Shown here piece after piece: positions 2,590-23,207 of a stretch of DNA of 36,260 nt (its first letter is position 1; every line of letters starts with the position of its first letter). The position numbers and the translations under genes were made by a program. The stretch is taken from contig JAPLNJ010000273.1 in assembly GCA_026692885.1 (NCBI GenBank), forward strand, positions 1 through 36,260, written 5' to 3'. This DNA is from Planctomycetota bacterium (lineage in GTDB: Bacteria > Planctomycetota > Planctomycetia > Pirellulales > Pirellulaceae). The notes beneath the pieces are model-generated. The model searched no databases. It was not told the DNA's origin and was given only the letters and a program-made list of their open reading frames with translations.

Positions 2590-4149
2590 ATGAAGGTTCT
2601 TCTGATTCAGCCTTCGGAATTTGCAGACGACACGATAACCCCCGAGTACAAGAAGCGGGGCCGCTTGAAAGTCTTGGCGAAGTCCGTGATCATGCGCCCC
2701 GCCTGTCTCCCGCCCATGGGTCTCTTGTATGTCGCCAACTCCATAAAGCGAGCCAATCATGAGGTCGCGATCATCGACGCCGTCACCCTGCAACTCACCA
2801 ACAGAGAAATCGTTCAGGAAATTGTTCATTGGACCCCCGACCTCGTTGGTATATCTTTGTATTCGTGGAGGCTCCGCGAAGCACACTCATTAACCGCGAG
2901 TATCAAGAAGGCCCTTCGAATCCCCATCGTGCTCGGCGGCCCCCATCCCACCGCCTTACCAGACGAGACGCTCGCTGAATTCAAGGACGCAGATTTTCTC
3001 CTGACGGGGTGGGCCGATTTCTCCATCATCAACTTTTTAGATATGCTCGAAGGAAGAACCGGTCAGACGACCGTCCCTGGCTTGTGTTACCGCGCAAACA
3101 ATACCATCACCAAAAACAGCCCTTCCACGCTCCCGTCAAATCTCGATGAAATACCCTTTCCGGACAGAAGCGTAATTGACTACATGTATGATAACGATCT
3201 GTATTACAACATCACGACTCCCAATCGCAAGATCGATATCATCATGACCTCTCGAAACTGCCCCTTCACCTGCAGATTCTGCCAGAACCTGACAGGACAT
3301 AAGTACCTTCCTCATAGTCCTGAACACGTCATTGAGGAGATCGACTATCTTGTGAGTCGAGGTGTGAGTTCTATTGAAATCATGGACGATACATTTACGG
3401 TGAATCGCAAACGCGTTGAGAAGATATTTGACCTGATTGAGTCAAGACACCACGGGCTAGACTTCCGTATCAGGAGTCGAGTGAATCTGATTGACAAACA
3501 GCTACTACACAGATTCAAGAGAATCGGCGGAAGAGCCGTAAGTTACGGGCTGGAATCCGGAAGTGATGCGGTCTTAGGACTAATGCATAAACAGACCACC
3601 GTTGCAGATAATGCGGCGGCCTGTCTAGCAACCAAGGAAGCGGGCCTCATTTGTCATTCCACCTGGCTGTTTGGGTGGCCTGGCGAGTCTTTAGAGGACA
3701 TTGACTGTACCTTCGAGTTCATCAAGCAGTATCTGCCGACTACATTCAATATTGGTGTCCTGATACCACTGCCCGGAACTCCGATCTATGACGAAGCAAG
3801 AGAGAACGGGACCCTCGATAAAGACTGGAGCGTCACCAATACATCTCTTCCATATGTCAAGACCGCATTATGGCCCAATCGGGCCGACTTGGTACGCCTT
3901 CTCGATCGAAAGATGTTTTATCTGCAGATCAATCCCAGATACCTATGGCAGACGATGCTTCTGATTGTGCGTTTCCGCAATACTCGATTGTTCTCATATG
4001 GGGCGAACGTAGTATTCCGCAAGGTCTGTCGGGCGGCCTTTTACAGCGCCGTGTTTTTGTGGCGACAGCCTCAACAAACATTTGGCCGACTGTCACACGT
4101 CATCGAAAGAGCGATTAAGAAACCCAGAATCAGGGGGCACAAGAGTTGA
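2590..4149 (+). CDS. Radical SAM protein with N-terminal B12-binding-like domain
   Basis: The 519-residue product has an N-terminal cobalamin-binding-like Rossmann domain (about residues 1-150, including the GGPHPTALPDE strand-loop) and a radical SAM domain with the cluster-binding motif C224-x3-C228-x2-C231. The BchE/Elp3-type layout suggests a cobalamin-dependent methylase or C-C bond chemistry; I do not see the full DxHxxG cobalamin motif. The C-terminus is basic with a hydrophobic stretch, perhaps membrane-associated. It begins 30 bases after the dehydratase. Base composition is visibly more AT-rich than its neighbours: the line 3181-3240 has 23 G+C of 60, against 42 of 60 at 5041-5100 in the glycosyltransferase. 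This suggests separate acquisition. The substrate is unknown, but lipid or sugar modification fits the context. Confidence 0.85.
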   Translation: MKVLLIQPSEFADDTITPEYKKRGRLKVLAKSVIMRPACLPPMGLLYVANSIKRANHEVAIIDAVTLQLTNREIVQEIVHWTPDLVGISLYSWRLREAHSLTASIKKALRIPIVLGGPHPTALPDETLAEFKDADFLLTGWADFSIINFLDMLEGRTGQTTVPGLCYRANNTITKNSPSTLPSNLDEIPFPDRSVIDYMYDNDLYYNITTPNRKIDIIMTSRNCPFTCRFCQNLTGHKYLPHSPEHVIEEIDYLVSRGVSSIEIMDDTFTVNRKRVEKIFDLIESRHHGLDFRIRSRVNLIDKQLLHRFKRIGGRAVSYGLESGSDAVLGLMHKQTTVADNAAACLATKEAGLICHSTWLFGWPGESLEDIDCTFEFIKQYLPTTFNIGVLIPLPGTPIYDEARENGTLDKDWSVTNTSLPYVKTALWPNRADLVRLLDRKMFYLQINPRYLWQTMLLIVRFRNTRLFSYGANVVFRKVCRAAFYSAVFLWRQPQQTFGRLSHVIERAIKKPRIRGHKS

Positions 4150-6142: not shown

Positions 6143-7270
6143 ATGAAGAAAATCCTTGTCGTTTTCGGAACTCGTCCTGAAGCGATCAAACTAGCGCCGG
6201 TGATCAAGGAACTTCAGGCGACGGGGGCGGCGGAGACGCGTGTCTGCGTCACGGGCCAGCATCGCCAAATGCTAGATCAGGTTCTGAAACTGTTCGGGAT
6301 CACACCCGACTTTGACCTGAACCTAATGCGCCCCGGCCAGGACTTAACCGACGTCACGGCAGGTGTCCTCCAAGGAATGCGGTTGGTGCTGAGCGAATTC
6401 CGTCCGGACTGGGTGGTCGTCCAGGGGGATACCACCACGACCTTCGCCGCGACTTTGGCAGCATTCTATCAGAAATCGCGGGTGGCCCACGTGGAGGCCG
6501 GCCTGCGTACGGGGTGCCTGCTTGCCCCGTGGCCCGAAGAACTCAACCGGCGGCTAACGACGGTGATGGCCAATCTACACTTTCCCCCCACTGCCAGAGC
6601 CGCTGCTTGCCTATTGCGGGAAGGTGTGTCCGCCGAGGTGATCTGCGAGACCGGCAACACCGTGATTGATGCCCTGCTGATGGTCGTCGAACGCATTCGT
6701 AGCGATGACAGCCTTGCTGTAGCTCTGCGAGAAAGGTTCGATTTCCTGTCGCCGGATTGTCGCCTGCTGCTGGTGACCGGGCATCGACGAGAAAGTTTTG
6801 GCCAGCCCCTCGAAGCCATCTGCCGGGCCCTGCGGCGACTTGGTGAGCGACCAGACGTGCAGATCGTCTACCCGGTGCATCCGAACCCGAACGTCCAGCA
6901 ACTGGTGAAACAATACCTAAGTGGCTTGCCGCGAGTGCATCTGATCGATCCGCAGGACTATCTGCCGTTTGTCTATCTGATGATGCGCGCCTACCTGATC
7001 ATCACCGACTCGGGCGGAGTTCAGGAGGAAGCCCCTTCACTTGGCAAGCCTGTACTCGTCATGCGAGACACAACAGAGCGACCAGAGGCCGTCGAGGCAG
7101 GAACGGTGCGACTGGTAGGCGCCCACGAACATCGCATCGTCGATGAAGCGACTCGCCTGCTGGAGGATCAGAGGGAATACCAACGGATGTCGAGCGTTCA
7201 CAATCCTTATGGCGACGGACAAGCGTCCTCCCGGATCGTTCGTCGGATGTTGCAGGAGGTTTCCCCATGA
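6143..7270 (+). CDS. wecB: UDP-N-acetylglucosamine 2-epimerase (non-hydrolysing)
   Basis: This cytosolic enzyme interconverts UDP-GlcNAc and UDP-ManNAc. The 375-residue product matches the family length and shows its hallmarks in order: FGTRPEAIK near residue 8, TGQHRQMLDQVLKLFGI near 37, QGDTTTT near 94, HVEAGLRTG near 116, PWPEELNRR near 130, ETGNTVIDAL near 170, VTGHRRES near 212, and TDSGGVQEEAP near 290. It overlaps wecC by an ATGA and is followed by it, the classic WecBC pair that yields UDP-ManNAcA. A WbpI-type role (2-epimerisation of UDP-GlcNAc(3NAc)A) is an alternative given the downstream 3-amino-sugar genes, but the motif wording is closer to WecB. Confidence 0.95.
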   Translation: MKKILVVFGTRPEAIKLAPVIKELQATGAAETRVCVTGQHRQMLDQVLKLFGITPDFDLNLMRPGQDLTDVTAGVLQGMRLVLSEFRPDWVVVQGDTTTTFAATLAAFYQKSRVAHVEAGLRTGCLLAPWPEELNRRLTTVMANLHFPPTARAAACLLREGVSAEVICETGNTVIDALLMVVERIRSDDSLAVALRERFDFLSPDCRLLLVTGHRRESFGQPLEAICRALRRLGERPDVQIVYPVHPNPNVQQLVKQYLSGLPRVHLIDPQDYLPFVYLMMRAYLIITDSGGVQEEAPSLGKPVLVMRDTTERPEAVEAGTVRLVGAHEHRIVDEATRLLEDQREYQRMSSVHNPYGDGQASSRIVRRMLQEVSP

Positions 7271-8520
7271 GACTTCCCTTCGAAAAAATATCGGTCGTCG
7301 GTTTGGGCTACATTGGCTTGCCAACCGCCGTAATCATGGCCAGTCACGGCCTGCAGGTCGTCGGCGTCGATGTTAATGCAAATGCGGTCGCAGGGGTAAA
7401 TGACGGACACGCGCATTTCGTGGAGCCGGAACTTGATGCCGTCCTGCAGGCTGTGGTCGCTTCCGGCAGACTGCGAGCCACCACGCAACCGGAGGCCGCA
7501 GAGGTCTTCATCATTGCCGTGCCGACGCCGTTAGCAGAAGACAAGCGGCCGGACGTTTCCTATGTCACCGCGGCAGGCAGCGCAATTGCCCCGGTCTTGG
7601 AGAAGGGCAGTCTGGTGATCCTCGAGTCCACGTCGCCGGTTGGCACCACGGAACAACTAGCCGCGCAATTGGCCCAGGCCAGACCGGACCTGACATTCCC
7701 GCAAACCGCCGGCGAGAAAGCGGATGTCCTGGTCGCCCACTGTCCGGAACGGGTGTTGCCCGGCCGGATCCTTCGGGAATTGGTCGAGAATGACCGTATC
7801 ATTGGCGGTTTGAGTCGGGCCAGTGCTCGGGCTGCTAAGACGCTCTATCAAATTTTTGTGCGGGGCGAGTGTTTCATTACTGACGTGCGGACGGCGGAAT
7901 TGGCCAAGCTGACTGAGAACGCATTCCGTGATGTAAACATCGCGTTTGCTAACGAGCTGTCACTCATCTGCGACCGACTCGGCATCGACGTCTGGGAACT
8001 GATCAAACTCGCGAATCGTCACCCGCGAGTCAACATCTTACGGCCCGGCCCCGGCGTCGGAGGCCATTGTATCGCCGTCGACCCTTGGTTCATCGTCGCT
8101 TCCGCGCCACAGGAGGCCCGGCTCATCCGCACGGCTCGCGAAGTCAACGACTCCAAGCCCTTGCACGTCGTCGCGGCCATTATGCGTCGCGCAGAACGTT
8201 TCAAAGATCCCGTGATCGCCTGCCTGGGACTGGCGTTCAAGGCCGACGTAGACGATCTCCGCGAAAGCCCCGCCATGGAGATCGTGCACCATCTGGCAAC
8301 TGCGGGAGTCGACCGCCTGCTGGTGGTCGAACCGCACATCGAACAGTTGCCCCACGGATTACGAAGTCTCGCCCCGAAGGTCGCTCTCGTGGATCTGCCG
8401 GAGGCGCTCGCCCGAGCAGACATCGTTGTACTCCTGGTCGATCACCGGTTCTTCCAAGACATCGAGCCCCAGATGTTGCGAGAGAAGATTGTGATCGACA
8501 CGCGCGGGGTGTGGCGATGA
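7267..8520 (+). CDS. wecC: UDP-N-acetyl-D-mannosamine dehydrogenase
   Basis: This enzyme oxidises UDP-ManNAc twice at C6 with NAD+ to UDP-ManNAcA. The 417-residue product shows the NAD-binding VGLGYIGLP at residues 11-19, LESTSPVGTTE near 119, CPERVLPG at 159-166, and LTENAFRDVNIAFANEL near 215-231. PGVGGHCIAVDPW carries the predicted catalytic Cys268, and LAFKADVDDLRESPAMEIV is the C-terminal domain signature. The wording is closely WecC-like (ending DTRGVWR) rather than WbpA-like. Its start overlaps the wecB stop and its stop overlaps the next start, so the three genes are translationally coupled. Confidence 0.95.
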   Translation: MRLPFEKISVVGLGYIGLPTAVIMASHGLQVVGVDVNANAVAGVNDGHAHFVEPELDAVLQAVVASGRLRATTQPEAAEVFIIAVPTPLAEDKRPDVSYVTAAGSAIAPVLEKGSLVILESTSPVGTTEQLAAQLAQARPDLTFPQTAGEKADVLVAHCPERVLPGRILRELVENDRIIGGLSRASARAAKTLYQIFVRGECFITDVRTAELAKLTENAFRDVNIAFANELSLICDRLGIDVWELIKLANRHPRVNILRPGPGVGGHCIAVDPWFIVASAPQEARLIRTAREVNDSKPLHVVAAIMRRAERFKDPVIACLGLAFKADVDDLRESPAMEIVHHLATAGVDRLLVVEPHIEQLPHGLRSLAPKVALVDLPEALARADIVVLLVDHRFFQDIEPQMLREKIVIDTRGVWR

Positions 8521-10697
8521 AACAGGTGCTATTCAAACAAGGCTGCGTCGTGGTCGAAGACGTGCCGGCACCGCTCGTCGCTCCGGGCACGGCACTAATC
8601 CGCACCGCGTACTCCTGTATCTCGACCGGAACGGAGTTGAGCGGCATCAAGGCTAGCGGGCAGCGACTGTGGAAGCGAGCCCTGCAGAATCCACAAGCCG
8701 TCGTCAATGTGCTGCAACTGGCCGCCACGCAGGGAATCGGGCATGCCAGCAGCGTCGTCCAAGGGGCCGTGTCCACCTGGCAAGCGACCGGCTACTCGGC
8801 CGCTGGAACCATCGAGGAGGTGGGCCCCGAGACCGGCGACCTGCATCCCGGCCAACGCGTTGCCTGCGCCGGCGCTCAGTGCGCTTTCCATGCGGAGCAC
8901 CTTTGCGTACCGAGAAATCTAATTGTCGCCGCGCCTGACACCGTCGACTTGGCAAGTGCGTCCACCGTCGCCTTGGGCGCGATCGCCCTGCAGGGCGTCC
9001 GGCGTTGTGCGCCAACCTTGGGAGAAACGATCGTCGTCGTCGGACTGGGCGTGCTCGGTCAGTTGGTATCCCAGATCTTACGAGCGAACGGCTGCCGCGT
9101 GATCGGTGCTGATTTGAATCCGGCCCGGCGGCAGCTTGCCCAGAGCTTGGGGGTTGAATTGCTCGTCGATCCCGCAGGCGGTGCCGAGCCCCAGCAGGTC
9201 GCACGGCTGACGGCCGGAATCGGAGCCGACGGCGTGATCATTACGGCGGCCACGCCCTCGGACGAGGTCGTGTCGACTGCTTTTGGCATGTGCCGCAAGA
9301 AAGGACGCGTAGTCCTCGTCGGTGACGTCGGCCTGCATTTGCGGCGTGCCGATATTTACGAGAAGGAACTCGATTTCCTCGTGTCCACTTCCTACGGTCC
9401 AGGTCGCTACGACCAACGGTACGAGAGCGGAGGACTCGATTACCCTGTGGGCTACGTGCGTTGGACCGAAAGTCGCAACATGCAGGAATACCTGCGGCTA
9501 CTCGCCGAGGGAAAGGTACGCGTGGAACCACTGATTGGCGGTCAGTTCCCCGTCGACCGCGCCACCCAGGCGTACGAAGCCTTGCAGACGGGAGACCCGA
9601 GCACTCGTCCGCTCGTTGTGTTGCTACAGTACCCCGAGTCGTCCGACTTAACTCTCCCCTCAAATCGACGCATCAGCACACCACGGGCCCGCACACCGCG
9701 GCCCGGCGCCATCCGCTTGGCCGTTATCGGTGCAGGCAGCTTCGCCGTTGGGATGCACCTGCCGAACCTGAGACGGGTCCCTGACCTATTTTCCTTACAG
9801 GCGGTCGTCAATCGCACCGGCCACAAGGCCACAGCCATCGCAAAACAGTTTCACGCGAGCTACGCAACCACCGATGTTGATGAAGTCTTGTCCGATCCCG
9901 ACGTTGACGCGGTTTTGATCGCCACACGTCATGATCTGCACGCGTCACTGGCGCTGCGATCGCTGCAGGCCGGCAAGCACGTCCTCTTGGAAAAGCCGCT
10001 GGCCCTGACCAGTCAGGAACTGGACCAACTTAGCGAGTTCTTTGCCCAAAGAGACGGACCGGCTCCAATTCCAATACTGATGACCGGCTTCAATCGCCGA
10101 TTCTCGCCGCACGCCACACGGATTCGCGAGCTGGTCTCAAATCGCAGTGACGCCATGGTCCTGAACTACCGCCTTAATGCCGGCTATATGCCTTCCGATC
10201 ACTGGATTCACGGCCCGGCAGGCGGTGGCCGCAACATCGGGGAAGCCTGCCACGTCTATGACCTTCTGCTCTCGCTGACTCAGGCACCGGCTGCGCAGAT
10301 TGCGGTCCAGTGCTTGCAGCCGGCGCATCAGCACTACCTATCCCACGACAACTTCGTGGTCACGCTCTCGTTTGCCGATGGGTCGCTGGCAACCCTCATG
10401 TATACGGCGTTGGGTGCGAGTCAATTCCCGAAAGAACATTTGGAGGTTTTCGTCGATGGTAAGGTGATTCGCTTGGTCGATTACCGGACCACCGAGGTCT
10501 TCGGTGCCAAGGCGAAGGGGCTTTCGACGCGGTTGGTAGAGAAAGGACATCGCGAAGAATTGGCCGCATTCGCACGCGCCATCCGAGAAGGTGTTGAATG
10601 CCCGATCCCCTGGTGGCAACAGGTCGAGGCAACGCGAATCAGTTTTGTCGTGGAGCAATCGTTGCAGCCGGGCCCCTTGCCGACAGCGACAACGTAG
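8517..10697 (+). CDS. Bi-domain oxidoreductase: zinc-type alcohol dehydrogenase fused to Gfo/Idh/MocA dehydrogenase
   Basis: The 726-residue product has two NAD(P)-dependent modules. Residues 1 to ~380 form an MDR/zinc-dehydrogenase-like domain (STGTELSG near 37, Rossmann loop VVGLGVLGQL near 170). From ~398 to the end it is a Gfo/Idh/MocA domain (AVIGAGSFAVGMHLPNL near 400, LLEKPLAL near 490, GFNRRFSPH near 522). The zinc-type half shows few of the usual structural cysteines. The frame is open back to 8067 inside wecC, but the ATG at 8517 overlaps the wecC stop and starts MKQVLFKQG, a normal MDR N-terminus. Fusions of this type occur in polysaccharide loci with heparinase and AsnB genes, as here. 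The substrate is unestablished; a sugar-nucleotide oxidation/reduction role is inferred. Confidence 0.88.
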   Translation: MKQVLFKQGCVVVEDVPAPLVAPGTALIRTAYSCISTGTELSGIKASGQRLWKRALQNPQAVVNVLQLAATQGIGHASSVVQGAVSTWQATGYSAAGTIEEVGPETGDLHPGQRVACAGAQCAFHAEHLCVPRNLIVAAPDTVDLASASTVALGAIALQGVRRCAPTLGETIVVVGLGVLGQLVSQILRANGCRVIGADLNPARRQLAQSLGVELLVDPAGGAEPQQVARLTAGIGADGVIITAATPSDEVVSTAFGMCRKKGRVVLVGDVGLHLRRADIYEKELDFLVSTSYGPGRYDQRYESGGLDYPVGYVRWTESRNMQEYLRLLAEGKVRVEPLIGGQFPVDRATQAYEALQTGDPSTRPLVVLLQYPESSDLTLPSNRRISTPRARTPRPGAIRLAVIGAGSFAVGMHLPNLRRVPDLFSLQAVVNRTGHKATAIAKQFHASYATTDVDEVLSDPDVDAVLIATRHDLHASLALRSLQAGKHVLLEKPLALTSQELDQLSEFFAQRDGPAPIPILMTGFNRRFSPHATRIRELVSNRSDAMVLNYRLNAGYMPSDHWIHGPAGGGRNIGEACHVYDLLLSLTQAPAAQIAVQCLQPAHQHYLSHDNFVVTLSFADGSLATLMYTALGASQFPKEHLEVFVDGKVIRLVDYRTTEVFGAKAKGLSTRLVEKGHREELAAFARAIREGVECPIPWWQQVEATRISFVVEQSLQPGPLPTATT

Positions 10698-10713
10698 ATC
10701 CGGGCAACCAAGC

Positions 10714-11848
10714 ATGTGTGGACTGGCGGGCGTGTTATGTCTGGACGATACGGCGTTTCGCGTCAGCGAGCCATACCTTGTGCGCCTGCGCGACACCATG
10801 CTTCACCGCGGCCCGGACGGAGCTGGGGTATGGAGCAGTCCCGACGGCACCGTTGGACTCGCCCACCGCCGTTTGTCCATCATCGATCTCTCAACGTCCG
10901 CTAACCAGCCGATGAGCAATGAAGACGGCATGATCTGGCTGGTCTTCAACGGCGAGATCTACAATCACGCTGAGGTGCGAGCCGAGCTTCAGAAAGTGGG
11001 CGGTCATGTCTGGAGAACGGATCACTCCGACACCGAGGTTATCATCCATGCCTACGAACAGTGGGGCATCGACTGCCTGCAGCGGTTCCGCGGCATGTTT
11101 GCCATCGCAATCTGGGACCGGCGAACCAAGGAACTCTGGCTCGTCCGCGACCGATTGGGCATCAAACCACTGTACTACAGCCAGCACCACGGCCGGCTGA
11201 CGTTTGCCTCGGAGATCAAAGCTCTGCTGGCGGATGCCGAACAACCACGGGTCGTCCACGAGGAAGCCTTCTTCCACTATCTGTCGTTCCTCGCTTCTCC
11301 CGCCCCTCAAACGTTATTTGACGGCATTCGCAAGTTGCCAGCCGGCTGCTACTTGCACGTCCGTGCGAACGGTCAACTCTGCGAGAAGCGTTATTGGGAG
11401 GTTTGGGACCACACCACACCGTTAATCGGCCTGTCGGATGATGAGATCGCCGCGCGAGTCCTGGACGAACTGCGAACCAGTGTGCGCCTGCACGCCGTCA
11501 GCGACGTTCCCGTCGGCATTTTTCTTTCCGGCGGCATCGACTCCTCCACCAATGCGGCGCTCTTCTCCGAGACCACCGGGCAGCCCGTACGCGCTTTCAC
11601 GATCGGCTACCAAGACGACTATCCCTGACCAGTTGATCGATCGCCGCAAACAGGGCTTCAGTGTGCCGATCAACGAATGGTTCTTCGACCGCTTGGGCGA
11701 GCGCATGCGAGGTGAGTTGACGACGTTCTGCCAACAGACGGACTTCCTGAACGCCGCTTACGTGCGACATCTGCTTGACGGCCGCAACGGTCCGTTGGTT
11801 TGGTATCTGTTCAATTTCGCCTTGTGGTGGAAGGAATTCGTCGGATGA
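10714..11848 (+). pseudogene. asnB: Asparagine synthetase (AsnB-type amidotransferase) with internal deletion and frameshift
   Basis: The start MCGLAGVL supplies the N-terminal nucleophile Cys2 of a class II glutamine amidotransferase. The glutaminase domain appears complete, and the ATP-binding SGGIDSS is at residues 272-278. The frame ends at 11628 just after FTIGYQDDYP. The C-terminal part of the same family continues in another frame from 11621 (IPDQLIDRRKQGFSVP ... WWKEFVG) to 11848. In the intact AsnB at 27283-29208, about 275 residues separate SGGIDSS from VPDQV. Here the two anchors are about 32 residues apart, so roughly 240 residues (about 0.7 kb) are missing. The synthetase domain should be non-functional. 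The intact family would amidate a sugar carboxylate or Asp. Confidence 0.88.
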
Positions 11849-14891: not shown

Positions 14892-15995
14892 ATGACTACC
14901 ATCATCTCGCCGCTACGCTTCGCCATTGTTGGTTGCGGTCGCATTGCCGCCCGTCACGCCGAACACATCCGCACAGTGGGAACGCTGGCCGCCGTATGCG
15001 ATATCGACCCCCAGCGAGCGGCGGATCTTGGAACACAACATGGCGCGACCCCCTACACGGATCTCGCGTCCCTCCTGAGTCGTGAAGCCGGGCACCTGGA
15101 CGTCATCTCGATCTGCACGCCGAATGGCCTTCACGCAGAACACGCAATTCGATCCCTTCAAGCCGGTTGCCACGTGCTATGCGAAAAACCCATGGCCATC
15201 CACGCGGCAGATGCCGCCCGTATGATCCACGCCGCAGAACGCGCCAATCGCCGTCTTTTTGTGGTCAAGCAAAACCGTCTCAACCCGCCGGTCGTCGCCG
15301 TCAAGCAAGCTCTCGATGAAGGACGCTTGGGCCGCCTCTTCAGCGTCCAATTAAACTGTTTTTGGAATCGAAATGACAACTACTATCGCGATTCGTGGAA
15401 GGGAACGTTGGATCTGGACGGCGGGTGCCTCTATACCCAGTTTAGCCACTTCATCGACTTGCTCTATTGGTATCTTGGCGACGTTCATTCCGTCCATACG
15501 CTGTTGGCCAATTATGCTCACCAGGATACGGTAGAATTTGAAGACTCAGGAGTCGTAATCATCGAATTTGCAAGCGGAGTCATCGGCAGCTTGCACTTCA
15601 CCATCAACAGCCACCGTCAGAACATGGAGGGTTCCATCACCATTTTCGCAGAAAAGGGAACCGTAAAGATCGGCGGCCAGTATTTGAATGAACTCGAGTA
15701 TCAGAGTATCGAGGGATATTGCATTGAGAACCTGCCACCAGGGCGTCCCCCAAATCAATACGGCGAGTATGTGGGATCGATGTCGAACCATGACAAGGTC
15801 TACGAAAACGTTGTCAATGTCCTTCTTCACAATGCGGCGATTGTAGCCAACGCTCTCGAAGGTTTGAAAACGGTCGAGATCATTGAAAAAATCTACGCTG
15901 CCAACGGACAGTGGTCGCGTTCCTCGCTGTCTCCGATCGAATCACCGCGTGCCAGACGCCCCGCTTGCATTCCGACTCCGATCCTGTCGCGCTGA
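14892..15995 (+). CDS. Gfo/Idh/MocA dehydrogenase, WlbA/WbpB-like (probable UDP-HexNAcA 3-dehydrogenase)
   Basis: In the WbpB/WlbA family this enzyme oxidises C3 of UDP-GlcNAcA to the 3-keto sugar that an aminotransferase then aminates. The 367-residue product has the NAD-binding GCGRIA at residues 14-19, the catalytic EKP at 98-100, VKQNRLNPPV near 125 and FWNRNDNYY at 157-165. DGGCLYTQFSHFIDLLYW (about 176-193) carries the conserved His186. These segments are characteristic of WlbA-like members rather than inositol dehydrogenases. It is followed by an acetyltransferase and a DegT aminotransferase, the same trio as wbpB-D-E. The ATG at 14892 is the only reasonable start. Confidence 0.88.
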   Translation: MTTIISPLRFAIVGCGRIAARHAEHIRTVGTLAAVCDIDPQRAADLGTQHGATPYTDLASLLSREAGHLDVISICTPNGLHAEHAIRSLQAGCHVLCEKPMAIHAADAARMIHAAERANRRLFVVKQNRLNPPVVAVKQALDEGRLGRLFSVQLNCFWNRNDNYYRDSWKGTLDLDGGCLYTQFSHFIDLLYWYLGDVHSVHTLLANYAHQDTVEFEDSGVVIIEFASGVIGSLHFTINSHRQNMEGSITIFAEKGTVKIGGQYLNELEYQSIEGYCIENLPPGRPPNQYGEYVGSMSNHDKVYENVVNVLLHNAAIVANALEGLKTVEIIEKIYAANGQWSRSSLSPIESPRARRPACIPTPILSR

Positions 15996-16114
15996 CCATC
16001 TCCCTCGGTCTCAGTTGTGACGAGCGGTTCAAATGGTCGACGATCCCTAGAATACCGCCATTCTTCATCATCCCCCGGTGCTTCTTGGACCCCGCCCGTG
16101 TCATCTATTTGAAC

Positions 16115-16720
16115 GTGATCTTACCCGCAGACGCTGCGATTGGTGAATTCGTAGTCATTGGCGTTACGCCATCTGGACGGACCGTCGGCGAACTAACTGT
16201 CGCGATCGGACCCGGAGCCGTGATTCGCTCCCATTGTGTGATCTACGCAGGAACTCGTATTGGATGCAATTTTCAGGCGGGTCATGGCGCATTGATCCGG
16301 GAGTTCTGTGAAATCGGCGATTATGTAAGCATTGGCAGTCACACGGTCATCGAACATCACGTGGTGCTGCAGGACGGCGTCCGCATTCACTCTGGCGCGT
16401 TTATCCCGGAATTCTCGATCCTGGAAGCTGGATCTTGGATTGGACCCAACGTCGTGTTCACAAATGCCCGCTATCCTCGCAGCGCCGCAGCGAAGTCCAC
16501 CCTTGTCGGCCCCCGCATCCTAGAGGGCGCCCGAGTGGGTGCCAACGCCACGTTGCTTCCCGGAGTGATCATCGGCCGCGAGTCCCTCGTAGGCGCGGGC
16601 GCAGTCGTCGTGGAGAATGTACCCGACTTTGCCGTTGTGGTCGGCAATCCTTCCCGGGTGGTCAACGACGTGCGCAAACTGCCGGCGTACGCCACGCCAG
16701 AATTATTGCTCGAAAGCTAG
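16115..16720 (+). CDS. Left-handed beta-helix acetyltransferase, WbpD-like
   Basis: This enzyme probably N-acetylates the 3-amino group of the UDP-sugar made by the neighbouring dehydrogenase and aminotransferase, using acetyl-CoA. The sequence is a run of hexapeptide repeats (IGPGAVIRSH, IGCNFQAGHG, IGDYVSIGSHTVIEHHVVL, IGPNVVFTNARYPRS, VGANATLLPGVIIG, VGAGAVV). The loop NARYPRS and catalytic-type His residues resemble WbpD/WlbB. The frame is open from a GTG at 15911, but its first ~29 codons overlap the upstream gene and look like shadow. The GTG at 16115 gives 201 residues, close to the family length; TTG at 16109 is an alternative. No ATG exists in frame, so the native start may have decayed or be non-ATG. 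Confidence 0.78.
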   Translation: MILPADAAIGEFVVIGVTPSGRTVGELTVAIGPGAVIRSHCVIYAGTRIGCNFQAGHGALIREFCEIGDYVSIGSHTVIEHHVVLQDGVRIHSGAFIPEFSILEAGSWIGPNVVFTNARYPRSAAAKSTLVGPRILEGARVGANATLLPGVIIGRESLVGAGAVVVENVPDFAVVVGNPSRVVNDVRKLPAYATPELLLES

Positions 16721-16725
16721 CCGCT

Positions 16726-17832
16726 ATGCGACGAGTACCTCTGGTCGACCTGAAGGCCCAGTATGCCACCATCCGAGAGGAGGTGAACTGCGCCATCCAG
16801 CGGGTGTTGGAAAATGCCTCTTTCATTCTTGGAAGCGAAGTCGCAAGTTTCGAGGCTGCGTTCGCTCAGTACATCGGCGTCCACGGGTCCGTGGGAGTGG
16901 CTTCCGGCACGGCCGCACTCCACCTTGCCTTGCGGGCCTGTGGTGTGGGCCCCGGCGACGAGGTGATTACGACTGCCTTTTCCTTTATTGCGACAGCCGA
17001 GGCCATTTCGCAGTGCGGTGCCCGTCCAGTCTTCGCCGACATCGTCCCCGAAACGTTTAACCTTGATCCCCACGAGGTCGAGAAATTGATCACCCCGCGA
17101 ACGCGGGCGGTCGTACCTGTCCACCTTTATGGCCACCCGGCCGAAATGGAGTCTCTGCGACGGATCGCTGCGGAACACAATTTGTACTTGATCGAAGACT
17201 GCGCCCAGGCGCATGGTGCGGAATACAACGGGCAACGTTGCGGTGCGATAGGAGATGTGGGCTGTTTCAGTTTTTTCCCGGCGAAGAACCTTGGCTGTTA
17301 CGGCGACGGCGGGGCGGTTACCAGCAATAACGAACGCCTACTCAGCGGGATTCGCGCCTTACGAAATCACGGTCGGCTGGACAAGTACGTCCATCAGGAA
17401 ATCGGTTTCGGCGAGCGGCTTGATTCCCTCCAGGCGGCCGTCTTGTCGGTCAAGTTGCAGCACTTGGAGGAGTGGACCGAGGCGCGCCGGCGTCACGCCG
17501 AAACGTACTCGAGGTTGTTGGCCGGCGCCGGCGTAACCTTGCCGGTGGCCAACCCACTGGTACGGCATGTCTATCACCTCTATGTGCTTCGTACGCCGCA
17601 TCGCGATGAATTGCTCGAACGATTGAAGGTGTGCGGCATTGAGGCTGGTGTCCATTACCCCATCCCGATCCATCGTCAGCCAGCGTATCTAAAGCAGGGC
17701 TACGATTCAGTGTGCCTCCCGGTCACCGAACAAGCCGCAGCAGAGGTCCTGTCTTTGCCCATGTATCCCGAGCTACAGGCGGAACAGTTGGAACAGGTAG
17801 CCCGCTGTCTCTGGGACGCAGTTGACAAGTGA
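16726..17832 (+). CDS. DegT/DnrJ/EryC1-type PLP aminotransferase (WbpE-like)
   Basis: This enzyme transfers an amino group, usually from glutamate, to a keto nucleotide sugar using PLP. The 368-residue product begins RRVPLVDLKAQY, has the GVASGTAALHLAL phosphate-binding region near residue 62, VHLYGHPA near 130, IEDCAQAHGAEY near 155, and FFPAKNLGCYGDGG with the predicted PLP Schiff-base Lys187. Family length is normal. It follows the acetyltransferase by 5 bases and completes a dehydrogenase / acetyltransferase / aminotransferase trio for a 3-acetamido sugar. The frame extends upstream to 16435 but that part overlaps the acetyltransferase, so the ATG at 16726 was chosen. Confidence 0.93.
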   Translation: MRRVPLVDLKAQYATIREEVNCAIQRVLENASFILGSEVASFEAAFAQYIGVHGSVGVASGTAALHLALRACGVGPGDEVITTAFSFIATAEAISQCGARPVFADIVPETFNLDPHEVEKLITPRTRAVVPVHLYGHPAEMESLRRIAAEHNLYLIEDCAQAHGAEYNGQRCGAIGDVGCFSFFPAKNLGCYGDGGAVTSNNERLLSGIRALRNHGRLDKYVHQEIGFGERLDSLQAAVLSVKLQHLEEWTEARRRHAETYSRLLAGAGVTLPVANPLVRHVYHLYVLRTPHRDELLERLKVCGIEAGVHYPIPIHRQPAYLKQGYDSVCLPVTEQAAAEVLSLPMYPELQAEQLEQVARCLWDAVDK

Positions 17833-17900: not shown

Positions 17901-18680
17901 ATGAAGGTGGTCCTACTCTGCGGCGGACAGGGAACGCGGTTGCGCGAGGAGACGGAGTACCGCCCCAAGCCGCTGGTGGACATCGGGGGTCGTCCGATCC
18001 TGTGGCACATCATGAAGCTCTATGCCCACCACGGCTTTCGCGATTTTGTGCTCTGCCTGGGCTACCGCGGCCAAATGATCAAGGACTACTTCCTGAACTA
18101 CGAGGCGATGAACAACGACTTCACGATCTGCCTCGGCAAGCTGGGCGCGGTGGCCTACCACGGCGAACACGACGAACAGGACTTCCATGTGACCCTGGCC
18201 GAAACAGGGGCCAGCGCGATGACCGGGGGCCGCATCAAGCGGATCGCCAAGTACATCGCGAATGATACGTTCATGGTGACATACGGCGACGGGGTCTCCG
18301 ACGTCAACATACAAGCCTTACTCGACTTTCATCGCGCCCACGGCAAACTGGCCACCTTGACCACGGTCCGCCCCATCTCGCGATACGGGATTCTGAGCCT
18401 GGGTGATGACGCGCAAATCACCGGTTTTTCAGAAAAGCCCCAGGTCGATGGATGGATTAACGCGGGCTTTTTCGTATTCCATCGGCGAGTGTTGGACTAC
18501 TTGGCGGATGACGATTCCATTCTGGAAAGAGAACCGCTGGAACGGCTCGCGTGTGAAGGCCAGCTCATGGCCTTCCGTCACGACGGCTTCTTCTACGCCA
18601 TGGATACTTACCGGGAGTACCAGTACCTCACCGAATTGTGGAGCAGTGGTCGGGCGCCTTGGAGAGTCTGGGAGACATGA
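17901..18680 (+). CDS. rfbF: Glucose-1-phosphate cytidylyltransferase
   Basis: This enzyme makes CDP-glucose from CTP and alpha-D-glucose 1-phosphate, entering the CDP-6-deoxyhexose pathway. The 259-residue product has the nucleotidyltransferase signature [13 protein letters not shown] near residue 6 with [18 protein letters not shown] directly after, [19 protein letters not shown] near 56 (typical of RfbF rather than RmlA), TYGDGVSDV with the metal-binding Asp near 130, and VRPISRYG near 155. The start at 17901 (MKVVLLCGG) is chosen over the upstream open frame from 17829. Its stop overlaps the ATG of the following rfbG-like gene. Confidence 0.94.
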
Positions 18681-19268
18681 ACGCATTCTGGCAAGATCAG
18701 GCCACGCTGCTCACCGGCGTCACGGGACTCGGCGGTGGCTGGCTGGTCAAGCGCCTGCTCGCCGTTGGAGCGGACGTGGTATGTCTGGTGCGAGACTGGG
18801 TGCCACAGGTGGAACTCGTCCGCGCCGGGATATGGGAGCATGTGAAGGTCGTCCGCGGAGACGTCTGCGACCAGGCCCTGCTTAAAGGCGGCCTGGGCGA
18901 GTACGAGATCACAACCGTCTTGCACCTCGCGGCCCAGTCGATTGTGAGCATTGCCAACCGCAATCCCGTTTCGACCTTCGAGACCAACATCCGAGGCATT
19001 CGGTCGCTGCTGGAAGCCTTCCGCCGTAGTCCCAAGGTGAAACAGATTGTGGTGGCTTCCTCAGATAAAGCCTACGATGCACACGAGGCCTTGCCGTACA
19101 CCGAGACGGCTCCTCTGCAGGGTGTGTTACCGCCCCGACCATGTCATGCACCTTCAGGCGGATATCAGGCGACTGCAACAGGCTACGGGATGGAGTCCGC
19201 AAATGGATCTTGACCAAGGACTACGTCAGACAATCGCGTGGTATCAAAGTCGACTCGAACGGGGGTAA
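18677..19268 (+). pseudogene. rfbG: CDP-glucose 4,6-dehydratase-like gene truncated and joined out of frame to another epimerase's tail
   Basis: From the ATG at 18677, overlapping the rfbF stop, the frame encodes an SDR N-terminus: [16 protein letters not shown] near residue 12, [37 protein letters not shown] and [10 protein letters not shown]. The next expected element, the catalytic YxxxK (usually YDVSKS), is absent. From about 19120 another frame reads [17 protein letters not shown], then [14 protein letters not shown] to TAA at 19266-19268, a typical C-terminus of a nucleotide-sugar epimerase/reductase. The two pieces may come from one gene or, more likely, from rfbG and a neighbouring epimerase joined by one deletion. 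The catalytic Tyr/Lys and substrate domain are gone, so CDP-glucose dehydration would need another enzyme. Confidence 0.82.
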
Positions 19269-19272
19269 TTGC

Positions 19273-20058
19273 ATGAAACCGAACGCCGATGTCATCAGCA
19301 GCCTCGGGCACCATGCCGCGAAGTACACCCCGTGCGAGGCCGATGCACCGGCCACGCTAGGCACGGCCTTCGAAGCCTCGCCTCTGTCGTTGGCGCAACG
19401 TCTGCAGGCATTTCCTCGCCATTCACGACGTCAAGATATCGCGCGATTTCTGGCGAAATATGAACTCTTCAAACTGTGTGTGGGGGTTCATGGAAGTGTT
19501 GCCGAATGCGGGGTCTTCACTGATACCGGTTTACTGGCATGGATGCATTTCTCAACCATTCTTGAGCCGTACAACCATACGCGACGGATTATTGGATTCG
19601 ACACATTCGCTGGCTTTCCCGCAGTGAGCGGAAAGGATCTCGACCAGGGAAATTCCGAACACTTGCACGCGGGCGCCTTTGGGACGCATCCCGGCATCCG
19701 GGAGGAAATCGAAGCCTTCGTGGCCATTCACGATCAGAATCGTCCCTTGGGACACATTCCGAAAGTGGAACTGGTCGCTGGAAACGCCTGTGAAACCATA
19801 CCGCACTATGTCGAGACGCATCCCCACGTGATCATCAGCCTCCTGTACTTGGATTTCGACATCTACGAGCCCACCAAAGCGGCGCTGCAAAACTTGTATC
19901 CTCGTGTCGTCAAAGGTGGCATCGTGGCCTTCGACGAATTGAACTGTGCCGAGTTTCCCGGAGAGACGGTTGCGATGCTCGAATCGCTCGGCCCCGATCT
20001 ACCCGAACTGCGCCGCTTCAGTTTCGATCCCTACATTTCCTACTTGGTGAGATCCTAA
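19273..20058 (+). CDS. TylF/MycF-like sugar O-methyltransferase
   Basis: TylF/MycF enzymes are metal-dependent SAM O-methyltransferases that methylate hydroxyls of deoxysugars. The 261-residue product contains GSVAECGVFTDTGLLAW near residue 76 (SAM-binding loop), IIGFDTFAGFP near 107, VELVAGNACETIP near 163, and YLDFDIYEPTKAAL near 195 with the acidic residues expected to bind the metal. FDELNCAEFPGET follows. The start at 19273 follows a GGGGG-type ribosome site at 19261-19265. It sits between the CDP-sugar genes and the transketolase pair, so the substrate is probably the same sugar. Confidence 0.85.
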   Translation: MKPNADVISSLGHHAAKYTPCEADAPATLGTAFEASPLSLAQRLQAFPRHSRRQDIARFLAKYELFKLCVGVHGSVAECGVFTDTGLLAWMHFSTILEPYNHTRRIIGFDTFAGFPAVSGKDLDQGNSEHLHAGAFGTHPGIREEIEAFVAIHDQNRPLGHIPKVELVAGNACETIPHYVETHPHVIISLLYLDFDIYEPTKAALQNLYPRVVKGGIVAFDELNCAEFPGETVAMLESLGPDLPELRRFSFDPYISYLVRS

Positions 20059-20063
20059 GTCGC

Positions 20064-20924
20064 ATGGCGTTTGCTTGTGGCCTCCTCCCCACGGCGGAGC
20101 TCAACCAGGACCCCCTGGGTTCTACAGACCTTGCACGGACCATCCGATGCGAGGTCCTACGGATGGTCCACGCCGCCAAGGCATCGCACGTCGGTAGTTG
20201 CCTGTCGATCGCCGACATCTTGGCCGTACTGTACGCCCGCGTGCTCAGTACGGACGCCGGTTGGGCGAATTGGCCCGACCGGGATCGCTTTGTGCTCAGT
20301 AAGGGCCACGCCGCAGCGGCCTTGTATGCTGTGCTGGCGGAGCAGGGATTCTTTTCGCGGACCTGGCTCGCCACCTACTGTCAAGACGGTTCGCCACTGC
20401 CAGGGCATGTGACCAGCCACGGGATACCCGGAGTGGACGTGTCCACAGGATCCCTCGGACATGGACTACCCATCGCCTGTGGCATGGCGCTCGCAGGCAA
20501 GCGAGAGCAACACCCGTATCGCGTTTTCGCGATGTTGAGCGATGGCGAGTGCGACGAGGGATCTGTTTGGGAGGCGATTCTTTTCGCTCCGCACCATCAA
20601 TTGGACAACTTGGTGGCGATTGTGGACTACAACAAGATTCAGAGCTTCGGCAGCGTGAAAGAAGTGCTCGACTTGGAGCCGTTCGCGGACAAGTGGCGGG
20701 CCTTCCGCTGGGCCGTTCGCGAGATCGACGGGCACGATCATGACCAAATCGAGACGGCCCTAAAGGCGGTGCCATTCGAACCGGGCCGCCCGAGCGCAGT
20801 GGTCGCCCACACCACGAAGGGTAAGGGCGTTAGTTTCATGGAGAACCAGTTGGCCTGGCACTACAAATCGCCCAACACCGAACAGTTGGCCGCAGCCCTG
20901 GCCGAGTTGGAGACGCAAGCGTGA
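20064..20924 (+). CDS. Transketolase-like N-terminal subunit (ThDP-binding)
   Basis: This is half of a split transketolase that transfers a two-carbon ketol unit using thiamine diphosphate. The 286-residue product has SHVGSCLSIADILAVLY near residue 41, SKGHAAAALYAVL near 79, STGSLGHGLPIACGMAL near 127, and the ThDP/Mg motif SDGECDEG (159-166) ending in YNKIQS (Asn190). HTTKGKGVSFME follows. Its stop overlaps the next gene's GTG start. Its place inside a CDP-sugar module, rather than next to pentose-phosphate or DXP genes, suggests it builds or branches a sugar for the polysaccharide; this is inference. Confidence 0.92.
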   Translation: MAFACGLLPTAELNQDPLGSTDLARTIRCEVLRMVHAAKASHVGSCLSIADILAVLYARVLSTDAGWANWPDRDRFVLSKGHAAAALYAVLAEQGFFSRTWLATYCQDGSPLPGHVTSHGIPGVDVSTGSLGHGLPIACGMALAGKREQHPYRVFAMLSDGECDEGSVWEAILFAPHHQLDNLVAIVDYNKIQSFGSVKEVLDLEPFADKWRAFRWAVREIDGHDHDQIETALKAVPFEPGRPSAVVAHTTKGKGVSFMENQLAWHYKSPNTEQLAAALAELETQA

Positions 20925-21859
20925 GGACGGCCTTCATCGAAACGCTGTGCCAGTTGGCCGCGGAGGATTCACGGATCTGGCTACTGACGGGGGATCTGGG
21001 CTACTCGGTGCTGGAGCGGTTCGCGGAGCGATTCCCGGAACGGTTCGTGAACGTGGGCGTGGCCGAGCAGAACATGACCGGGGTGGCGGCCGGACTGGCC
21101 CTCTGTGATAAGGTCGTATTCACGTACTCGATCGCGAATTTCTCGACACTTCGGTGTCTGGAACAAATTCGCAACGACGTCTGCTACCACAACCTGAGCG
21201 TGAAGGTGGTGGCGATTGGCGGTGGCTTGGCGTACGGCCCGCAGGGCTACACGCATTATGGTGTCGAGGACTTAGCCGTGATGCGAGCGCTGCCCAACAT
21301 GGCGGTCGTCGCACCGGGCGATCCTATGGAGACCCGACTGGCAACAAGAGTGGTCGCCCAGCATCCTGGTCCCTGCTATTTACGCCTTGGAAAGGCACAC
21401 GAATCCTTCGTACATCTGCAAGAACCGGAGTTTGTGTTCGGCAAGGCGATCACGGTGCGACGTGGGGGTGATGCGACCTTGGTAACCACTGGAGGAACAT
21501 TGAAGCTGGCGGTAGAGGCGGCAGATGCATTGGCTCGGGAAGGTGTGGCGGTGCATGTGATGAGCATTCCGTTTCTATCGCCGTTGGATGTGGATGCGTT
21601 ACAGGCGGCGGCGGGGTGCACACGCTTAATCTGTGTGTTGGAAGAACACGGCTCGGTCGGGGGACTGTCCGATGCCGTGGCGCGATCTCTGGTGGGGCAC
21701 ACGCCGTGCAGGCTGCACTTCGTCACCGTGGATACACCCTGGTTGCTTCAGAGCCGACGGATTGGTTCCCAAGCGTACTTGGCGAAACGCCTGGGGTTTA
21801 CGGTGGACGCCATTACCCGGCAGGTGCTCGAATGGCTGAGCGAGCCGCAAGGGCCTTGA
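20921..21859 (+). CDS. Transketolase-like C-terminal subunit
   Basis: This is the pyrimidine-binding and C-terminal half of the split transketolase. The 312-residue product includes TGDLGYSVLERF near residue 23, VNVGVAEQNM near 43-52 with the predicted cofactor-activating Glu49, FTYSIANFSTLRCLEQIRND near 67, GGGLAYGPQGYTHYGVEDLAVMR near 100, and a C-terminal transketolase domain. It starts at a GTG overlapping the N-subunit stop (GTGA), so the two are translationally coupled and should form one alpha2beta2-type enzyme. Confidence 0.92.
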   Translation: MRTAFIETLCQLAAEDSRIWLLTGDLGYSVLERFAERFPERFVNVGVAEQNMTGVAAGLALCDKVVFTYSIANFSTLRCLEQIRNDVCYHNLSVKVVAIGGGLAYGPQGYTHYGVEDLAVMRALPNMAVVAPGDPMETRLATRVVAQHPGPCYLRLGKAHESFVHLQEPEFVFGKAITVRRGGDATLVTTGGTLKLAVEAADALAREGVAVHVMSIPFLSPLDVDALQAAAGCTRLICVLEEHGSVGGLSDAVARSLVGHTPCRLHFVTVDTPWLLQSRRIGSQAYLAKRLGFTVDAITRQVLEWLSEPQGP

Positions 21860-21866
21860 AGACAGC

Positions 21867-23207
21867 ATGAAACCGATGCAATTTCCCAAATGGCTGCTGC
21901 GGAAGCTGGACGGCCTTCAGGGCTCGCGGCGTCATGTGCTGCTGCTCGCCGGCGGCTCGGCGGCCGCGCAGGCCATCGGGATCGTAACCCTCATTCTCAG
22001 CACTCGTTTCTTCGGGGCCACAAGCTACGGGTATGCTGCAACGTTTATCGGATTGGTGGGGATGGTGGCTCCGTTCGCGGCCCTCCGGTACGACTTGGCG
22101 ATCGTCATCGCGGACACTGAACACGAAGCATCCGTCATGTTCTGGCTTTGTTTGGTCCTGAGCATGGTCATCGCGGTCCTCTCCGCGGTGCTCATTGCCG
22201 TGATCGTCGGCGTGTTGGCGGTGCCTCCCTATGCGGAGATGGGCTGGACCGTAATGCTCGCGGCGCTGCTGATTTTAGGGCAAGGCATCACGAACACCCT
22301 GACGGCATGGAACAATCGCCTGCGTCTGTACCGCCCCATCGTTTGGCAAAGAGTTCTTTGCAGCATCGCATCCTTGGTGGTCGTGGCGATTTTCGCGGTC
22401 CTACATCGGACCGAATGGATGCAACTCGCTCTTTCGATGCTCATCGCCACCGGATTCGGCCTATTCGTCCTGGCGACAGCGATCCACCGTGGCGGACACT
22501 TGCCAAGCATCTCCGGTGTCGGTCTCTCATCGCTCTGGTCGCAAGCTCGCCGTCATGCGCAATTTCCCTTGTATAATCTGCCAATGACGGCGATGGATCA
22601 AATAACCGCCGGACTGCCGATTCCGTTTCTGGCCGCGAGTTTCGGGCCGGCCGTGGCAGCCAATTACGCCTTGGCCAACAACGTCCTGCGGGCTCCCGCT
22701 TCCTGGGTTTCCGGAGCGGTGGGCCAGGTCTTCTTCGAGCGTGCATCACGGTCCCGGCATGACCGTCAAAGCCTCCGCTCCTTGCTCCACAGGAGCATCC
22801 GTACGCTGTTCCTGATCTTCATTCTCCCCGCCGCCCTGCTGCTGTTGACTACTCCTTGGCTGTTCCCGGGCGTGTTCGGTCCGTCCTACGGCGAGGCCGG
22901 CCATTTCGCGCAGGCGATGCTGCCGTTGGTGTTCCTGGGTTGCCTGTTCTCTCCGGTAAGTACACTGCCGTCAGTCCTTGGGCGGCAGGGCACGCATCTA
23001 GCCTTTTCCAGCGTCGCTTGCGCTGGGCGTGTCCTGGCTATCCCCTTGGCGAGCTACTACCAGTCACCGATGCTGCTCGTCGCAGTCATGGTCAGCATCG
23101 AAAGCGTCACCAGCCTGGCCTTTGCGACTTGGATTTTCTTCTTAGTGAGGCCGCCGGACGACACGCCGGATGCCGTGAACGAGAAAGGACGTGCGGATCT
23201 TGTGTAA
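21867..23207 (+). CDS. Wzx-type lipid-linked oligosaccharide flippase (MATE/PST family membrane protein)
   Basis: This predicted inner-membrane transporter flips undecaprenyl-linked repeat units to the periplasm. The 446-residue product is hydrophobic throughout with about 12 membrane spans. The first span region is GGSAAAQAIGIVTLILSTRF near residue 31, followed by YGYAATFIGLVGM, a family-like pattern. Internal features include LPMTAMDQITAGLPIPFLA near 239 and NYALANNVLRAPASWVS near 266. It begins 8 bases after the transketolase gene and overlaps the next glycosyltransferase, consistent with co-transcription. With the Wzy/WaaL-type protein at 31854 it supports a Wzx/Wzy-dependent pathway. Confidence 0.88.
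   Translation: MKPMQFPKWLLRKLDGLQGSRRHVLLLAGGSAAAQAIGIVTLILSTRFFGATSYGYAATFIGLVGMVAPFAALRYDLAIVIADTEHEASVMFWLCLVLSMVIAVLSAVLIAVIVGVLAVPPYAEMGWTVMLAALLILGQGITNTLTAWNNRLRLYRPIVWQRVLCSIASLVVVAIFAVLHRTEWMQLALSMLIATGFGLFVLATAIHRGGHLPSISGVGLSSLWSQARRHAQFPLYNLPMTAMDQITAGLPIPFLAASFGPAVAANYALANNVLRAPASWVSGAVGQVFFERASRSRHDRQSLRSLLHRSIRTLFLIFILPAALLLLTTPWLFPGVFGPSYGEAGHFAQAMLPLVFLGCLFSPVSTLPSVLGRQGTHLAFSSVACAGRVLAIPLASYYQSPMLLVAVMVSIESVTSLAFATWIFFLVRPPDDTPDAVNEKGRADLV

Follow-up and report, generated by a model that had tools for sequence, protein, structure and literature searches.

The stretch of DNA analysed here, which we call the window, is the 36,260-nucleotide contig JAPLNJ010000273.1 of a Planctomycetota bacterium (assembly GCA_026692885.1). 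Profile scans identified the whole window as a polysaccharide locus: it encodes glycosyltransferases and a flippase-like protein, gives a weak match to O-antigen ligase, and has PF02719-type genes close to either end. Within it lies a compact module of cytidine diphosphate (CDP)-sugar genes that includes a transketolase split over two genes, the thiamine diphosphate (ThDP)-binding half TKN and the pyrimidine-binding and C-terminal half TKC (Table 1). Here, we describe this module and its relatives and weigh the proposal that the transketolase pair adds a two-carbon ketol unit to a CDP-sugar. The genes from rfbF to the flippase-like gene follow each other at spacings of -4, 0, 4, 5, -4 and 7 bases, where the joint between rfbG and the second short-chain dehydrogenase/reductase gene (SDR2) was set by us at 19121/19122. 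The start of the rfbG-like frame overlaps rfbF by 4 bases, and the frame scored 94.2 bits against a TIGR02622 cut-off of 278.45. A preliminary description of the stretch, made from the letters alone, had listed rfbF, an rfbG-like gene, an epimerase tail, a TylF-like O-methyltransferase and a two-subunit transketolase as tightly packed, and all of them were recovered where it had placed them. The epimerase tail is real and corresponds to the C-terminus of SDR2; its YRPDQVMHLEADI motif equals the consensus of 10 aligned SDR2 proteins. By their PF00456, PF02779 and PF02780 domains, TKN and TKC belong to the transketolase superfamily in its split form. The TylF-type gene shares 62-66% identity with TylF-like genes that adjoin the pair in four related loci (L034, L037, L041 and L057; L and G denote loci and genomes).

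Table 1. Genes of the module and the adjoining flippase-like gene, with positions in the window.
Feature	Position	Strand	Observation
rfbF, glucose-1-phosphate cytidylyltransferase	17901..18680	+	open; TIGR02623 339.4 bits (cut-off 300.25); 79% identity to L013 rfbF
rfbG-like CDP-glucose 4,6-dehydratase, N-terminal ~148 residues	18677..19121	+	TIGR02622 positions 1-150 of 352; 74% to L013
SDR2 (second SDR), C-terminal, at least 46 residues	19122..19268 (about)	+	frame differs from rfbG; from translation
TylF-type O-methyltransferase	19273..20058	+	PF05711 47.1 bits (cut-off 23)
TKN, ThDP-binding half of split transketolase	20064..20924	+	PF00456 151.7 bits, over cut-off
TKC, pyrimidine-binding and C-terminal half of split transketolase	20921..21859	+	PF02779 120 bits and PF02780 70.5 bits, over cut-off
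Polysaccharide flippase-like gene	21867..23207	+	PF13440 50.4 bits (cut-off 23); 7 bases downstream of TKC

Linkage of the pair with rfbF and rfbG was analysed in related loci. From at least 586 relatives, the 80 loci closest to aligned TKN relatives were taken together with one plasmid, giving 81 loci, and linkage was counted only in the 58 with at least 7.5 kb upstream. Labels of neighbouring genes come from BLAST comparison with a small set of reference proteins and from graph clusters; some labels are loose, and L035 and L055 count as linked via the SDR cluster only. Genes of the rfbF and/or rfbG type were present in 32 of the 58 loci. A tree built from 100 concatenated TKN-TKC rows places the window within a clade of 40 rows (Shimodaira-Hasegawa-like approximate likelihood ratio test, SH-aLRT, 94; quick search without bootstrap). 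Within this clade, 26 of the 28 loci with enough flank were linked (25 with rfbF, 24 with an rfbG-type gene, 23 with both), and the two others carry SDR2 (L067) or rfbH and SDR2 (L005). The remaining ingroup loci were linked in 6 of 30 cases, two of the six by the loose SDR label only. Among outgroup split transketolases, rfbF or rfbG was the best reference of any frame in none of 19 loci (E 1e-20; 14 of the 19 span only 6-8 kb); L125 has an rfbH-like gene and L124 a weak SDR2-like one. These counts show that the linkage is not due to chance, and the concern voiced in the preliminary description that linkage with rfbF/rfbG might not be conserved elsewhere does not hold in the loci sampled. By record title, the clade spans eight phyla: Pseudomonadota (14), Verrucomicrobiota (7), Planctomycetota (5), Chloroflexota (3), Acidobacteriota (3), Bacteroidota (2), Fidelibacterota (1) and Myxococcota (1), with three rows lacking a phylum. 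In addition, 45 genomes, hand-picked from the 80 loci, were searched. An RfbG over the cut-off was found in 31 of them; in 23 of these it lies no more than about 7 kb from the pair and in 8 elsewhere (coordinates read by hand).

Intact sets were observed. The locus L037 reads rfbF-rfbG-C-methyltransferase-SDR2-TylF-TKN-TKC, which is the order of the window with every gene open, so that the counterpart with an intact rfbG that the preliminary description proposed to look for does exist. On the Methylovirgula plasmid pHY1 the order is rfbF-rfbG-SDR2-rfbH-TKN-TKC. A plasmid of Paenibacillus cellulosilyticus carries rfbF-rfbG-C-methyltransferase, followed by a fusion of SDR2 with TKN (635 amino acids), TKC and TylF. 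Of all the observations, this fused protein hints most strongly that the reactions of SDR2 and the transketolase may be neighbouring steps. Copies at least 93% identical to the TKN of L024 (Bradyrhizobium sp. YR681, genome G014) occur in 11 of 98 genomes of that genus, its own genome included, and SDR2, TKN and TKC were contiguous in all six loci fetched from this search, each only 3.8 kb long. The gene content of the sets suggests that the acceptor would be a 3,6-dideoxy sugar where rfbH is present and a 6-deoxy sugar in the others. An attempt to name SDR2 as a known reductase was given up, as its NCBIfam matches lay far under the cut-offs and its Protein Data Bank (PDB) matches were distant only.

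The active site of the split enzymes was then compared with that of other transketolases. The best solved relatives of both window chains are the chains of the split transketolase of Carboxydothermus hydrogenoformans (6yaj, 6yak), with TKN matching the N-terminal chain of 6yak. This enzyme has the same two-chain architecture, but it keeps a His and an Asp in the alignment that are both absent from the window TKC. As yardsticks we used the 30 full-length transketolases with the highest scores in the searched genomes, of which 28 were readable at the site and two were not. Position 100 of TKC is Gly in all 82 split proteins (G100 in the window) and His in all 28 readable full-length proteins; at position 108, Asp is found in none of the 82 (Q108 in the window) and in 28 of 28 full-length proteins. 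Position 105 is Tyr throughout the 82 split proteins, whereas the Arg of position 158 is replaced by Lys in 61 and retained in 20. In human transketolase, positions 100, 108 and 158 align with H416, D424 and R474. The E. coli equivalents are H461, D469 and R520, of which the His and the Asp belong to the phosphate/acceptor site. Judged by the His and the Asp, the window pair does not read as a pentose-phosphate transketolase. The cofactor side is kept: the ThDP Glu is present in 81 and the TH-motif His in all 82 split TKC proteins. In TKN, H42, H82, H115 and H266 are invariant in 15 aligned sequences. A kept cofactor side together with a changed acceptor side would fit an unusual acceptor.

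A known route with a similar outline is that to yersiniose A. As described in passages of PMC12247030 and PMC4753412, it likewise uses a CDP-sugar, places a two-carbon unit on a ketone by a ThDP enzyme, reduces the arm and delivers a polysaccharide sugar. It differs in that YerE is a single-chain, decarboxylase-type enzyme that uses pyruvate and leaves an acetyl arm, whereas a two-chain transketolase is found here and a hydroxyacetyl arm would be expected. Most members of the clade carry the enzymes for CDP-glucose and CDP-4-keto-6-deoxyglucose beside a ThDP enzyme, as yersiniose-type sets do; in the window rfbF is open and rfbG is cut. A YerE-class single-chain ThDP enzyme is missing from the sets: in 29 genomes, no TPP_enzyme_N (PF02776) match lay closer than 10 kb to the pair, the nearest being 22 kb away (coordinates read by hand), and the domain was absent from the 27 window proteins scanned.

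We lean towards the reading that the pair replaces YerE, acting as a two-subunit, transketolase-type ThDP enzyme that would add a ketol unit to a CDP-4-keto-6-deoxysugar, with SDR2 reducing the arm afterwards. RfbF would form CDP-glucose, and RfbG, if the window-type protein does use this substrate, would convert it to CDP-4-keto-6-deoxyglucose, the presumed acceptor. In some relatives the 3,6-dideoxy form would be made first, by RfbH and a reductase-like partner, or there would be an action of a C-methyltransferase. TKN/TKC would take a ketol unit of two carbons (CO-CH2OH) from a candidate donor, a ketose phosphate or hydroxypyruvate, and attach it to the ketone at C-4, the presumed branch position. 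The product would be a tertiary alcohol bearing a hydroxyacetyl arm, whose ketone SDR2 could reduce to yield a 4-C-(1,2-dihydroxyethyl) sugar. O-methylation by TylF, which we place after SDR2, and transfer into a surface polysaccharide would follow. The idea of a ketol branch had been put forward in the preliminary description. It is partly supported, being consistent with the fused SDR2-TKN protein, with the lack of YerE near the pair and with the altered active-site residues. In the window itself rfbG and SDR2 are both broken.

Several observations weigh against this reading. Neither RfbG nor SDR2 of the window is expected to work as it stands. The full-length yardsticks of the active-site comparison are the top-scoring ones only, and other phosphate contacts remain in many split proteins (R2 in 78 and S29 in 49 of 82). 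The His and the Asp are likewise absent from the sister clade that lacks CDP-sugar genes. In the outgroup, 13 of 18 pairs lack both, among them a Sinorhizobium pair (L130) in a sugar-kinase operon, adjoining a sugar kinase and a transporter, while three pairs retain both (L112, L115 and L129). The loss in these 13 pairs argues that the residue changes mark a class of enzymes and not a CDP-sugar substrate; this may be a wide transketolase class outside the pentose phosphate path. Window-type rfbG remains under the TIGR02622 cut-off even when open (196.7 against 278.45 in L016), so its specificity for CDP-glucose rests on adjacency to rfbF. SDR2 belongs to no specific family, the nearest solved chain being MoeE5. 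In genome G010 (locus L019) the over-cut-off rfbG lies on another contig than the pair, 3 kb from a weak TPP_enzyme_N match, and this genome may run a YerE-like set too, with both set types side by side. Finally, the clade that holds the window is backed by the SH-aLRT value of a quick search, and no starred set contains the window.

Among the alternatives, the best supported one assumes that the pair makes, or shortens, a free or phosphorylated ketose for another sugar of the same polysaccharide. The CDP-sugar would then stay untouched and the linkage would reflect the clustering of polysaccharide genes. This would suit the sister clade, which has the same residue changes and adjoins DegT, and often TylF, in surroundings free of rfbF and rfbG; DegT also stands beside the pair in 9 of 40 rfb-linked loci. 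A similar arrangement has been published for Actinoplanes missouriensis, whose Wzx/Wzy-type cluster wps-2 (AMIS_56690-AMIS_56780) contains genes for an S-adenosylmethionine (SAM) methyltransferase, both transketolase halves and DegT (PMC13390465). Deletion of this cluster left sporangia normal, and the transketolase is assigned no role in the sections concerned (PMC13390465). By gene layout only, and without placement on the tree, wps-2 resembles the DegT sister clade of this analysis; it differs from the window in that the cluster section of PMC13390465 does not name rfbF or rfbG. The sister clade and the Actinoplanes cluster thus indicate that the enzyme class has acceptors besides CDP-sugars. 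Against a free ketose in the window's own clade speak the specific presence of rfbF and/or rfbG in 26 of its 28 loci and the fusion, by which the pair is connected with a nucleotide-sugar-type SDR. We regard this alternative as unlikely, although it deserves to be kept in view.

A second alternative keeps the branching chemistry and moves it to another carbon or another nucleotide sugar, for example after C-methylation, with rfbF and rfbG partly serving a second sugar. It draws on a C-methyltransferase that separates rfbG from SDR2 in L037 and Paenibacillus (by Pfam) and in L004 and L051 (by eye), and on a sulfotransferase in L016. However, rfbG, SDR2 and TKN are contiguous in L029 with no C-methyltransferase between them, and rfbG and SDR2 are contiguous in L001, and we consider this version quite improbable. 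That the pair is an ordinary pentose-phosphate transketolase, split and located here by chance, is very improbable: it has the same domains, ordinary split enzymes exist (6yaj/6yak) and L112, L115 and L129 keep both residues, but the His and the Asp of the ordinary site are absent from all 82 split TKC proteins and all 45 searched genomes hold a further PF00456 match, with at least two matches in each and a full-length transketolase of more than 340 bits in 31 (one with an internal stop). The worry expressed earlier that the pair might be the only transketolase of its genome thus finds no support in the relatives.

The break between rfbG and SDR2 in the window was examined separately. The rfbG frame is cut a few residues short of the catalytic YxxxK motif (residue 154 in the open L013 relative), and by the TIGR02622 cut-off and this motif it does not pass as a full-length CDP-glucose 4,6-dehydratase. 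When the SDR2 tail was compared with the frames of the 81 loci, its 19 best non-self matches were all C-termini of SDR2 (best 68.6% over 35 amino acids), followed by C-termini of rfbG. This argues that a single gap took the back half of rfbG and the front of SDR2, and that the remnants are not two separate small genes. No spare copy of either gene was seen, as no other frame of the window matches their references better than the PF02719-type genes do. The route in the window is either dead, or served by genes elsewhere, or broken in the assembly only. A comparable gap is found 7.5 kb away in an asparagine synthase gene (10591-11628), which keeps its front and only the first 56 of 354 synthase-domain positions. 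A C-terminal asparagine synthase stretch lies at about 11626-11780 in another frame and matches the window's second copy weakly (38% over 29 residues, E 0.008). With two like gaps within 36 kb, an assembly fault is at least as much indicated as decay. A genuine deletion, with the whole set decaying in the source genome, would agree with the clean joint, the retention of both ends and the difference in frame; since the pattern in asparagine synthase is as compatible with repeated faults of assembly as with decay, we hold a genuine deletion to be possible but somewhat short of an even chance. Because of the break, the window is a poor place to test the ketol-branching idea, and relatives with all genes open are available instead.

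The published work places the pair beside other branching enzymes. A review records the proposal that, in the biosynthesis of miharamycin and amipurimycin, split transketolases attach hydroxyacetyl to a keto sugar (PMC12247030). Passages of the same paper list 13 further candidates recognised by gene context, all from Streptomycetes, with no candidate characterised in vitro. The resemblance to our pair lies in the split genes and the proposed reaction, and was drawn from the published description and not from sequence; those genes belong to antibiotic clusters, not to CDP-sugar polysaccharide loci. In the paulomycin system, E1-type (alpha-keto acid dehydrogenase-type) enzymes and Pau7 likewise produce a two-carbon branch at C-4 and, by ketoreduction, a hydroxyethyl octose (PMC4753412, PMC12247030), but the arm is acetyl and Pau7 is an aldo-keto reductase, where SDR2 is an SDR. 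A CDP-sugar set with a transketolase was not found in the titles and abstracts retrieved from the open-licence PMC literature; PMC3877843 was the only paper in which transketolase, rfbF and rfbG appeared together, and it gives them as separate metagenome functions. The preliminary description, which knew of no well-characterised example with this gene set, agrees with this outcome and needs qualification in that a split transketolase branching a keto sugar had already been proposed, though not proven (PMC12247030). What is new here is the association of a split transketolase with CDP-sugar genes, while the proposal of such enzymes as ketone branchers is known from two Streptomyces antibiotics. 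A link to bradyrhizose synthesis in Bradyrhizobium was dropped, since the parts of PMC4743980 concerned do not mention transketolase, cytidylyltransferase or rfb, and a two-carbon arm is not suggested by this sugar.

More broadly, and as a tentative view to which we give rather less than even weight, a clade of split transketolases from at least eight phyla may have left central metabolism to build branched octoses with a tertiary alcohol on CDP-sugars. The arm would be hydroxyacetyl, converted to dihydroxyethyl by SDR2, or aminated where DegT replaces SDR2, and the sister clade would do likewise on other acceptors. To our knowledge no structure has been described for surface sugars with such hydroxylated branched octoses. 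If the view is correct, nature would form tertiary alcohols on nucleotide sugars not only with YerE-like and E1-type enzymes but also with a transketolase, which would leave a hydroxylated arm, and new sugars would be predicted in polysaccharides of soil bacteria. Intact carriers for a direct test exist, for example among genomes of the genus Bradyrhizobium.

Two further correlations were followed in the loci. Tyr110 and Ser29 of TKC were considered as markers of CDP-sugar linkage, with 23 of 25 Tyr loci linked against 9 of 33 others, and were rejected because the tree shows just three changes of linkage, which leaves an independent-pairs test without power. Loci with Gly at position 29 and no Tyr110 (n = 26) include none that is rfb-linked, 21 with DegT and 8 with TylF. 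No locus combines SDR2 with an adjacent DegT (0 both, 20 SDR2, 32 DegT, 29 neither among the 81 loci; Fisher 8e-6). This co-avoidance was not significant after kinship correction, and action of the two at the same step stays an idea.

Outside the module, the window contains genes for a uridine diphosphate N-acetylglucosamine (UDP-GlcNAc) 2-epimerase, a UDP-sugar dehydrogenase, a Gfo/Idh oxidoreductase, a hexapeptide acetyltransferase and DegT (6143-8520 and 14892-17832), which presumably resemble a pathway of the diacetylated mannuronic-acid type. A B12-binding radical SAM protein is encoded at 2590-4149, and the stretch 3001-4000 has the lowest G+C content of the window (48%). The sister group without rfbF/rfbG comprises L006, L008, L010, L028, L031, L032, L050, L052, L059, L069, L081 and others. 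On a Streptomyces plasmid (L126), a split transketolase beside genes for a LysW carrier and an adenylation domain keeps the His and has Tyr in place of the Asp. Apulose-4-phosphate transketolase is a split enzyme that uses a ketone in the reverse direction, and is a conceivable identity for the L130 pair. Two split transketolase pairs were observed in one neighbourhood in three cases, namely L048 and L118 (one contig, about 11 kb apart), L058 (9992-18556) and L127.

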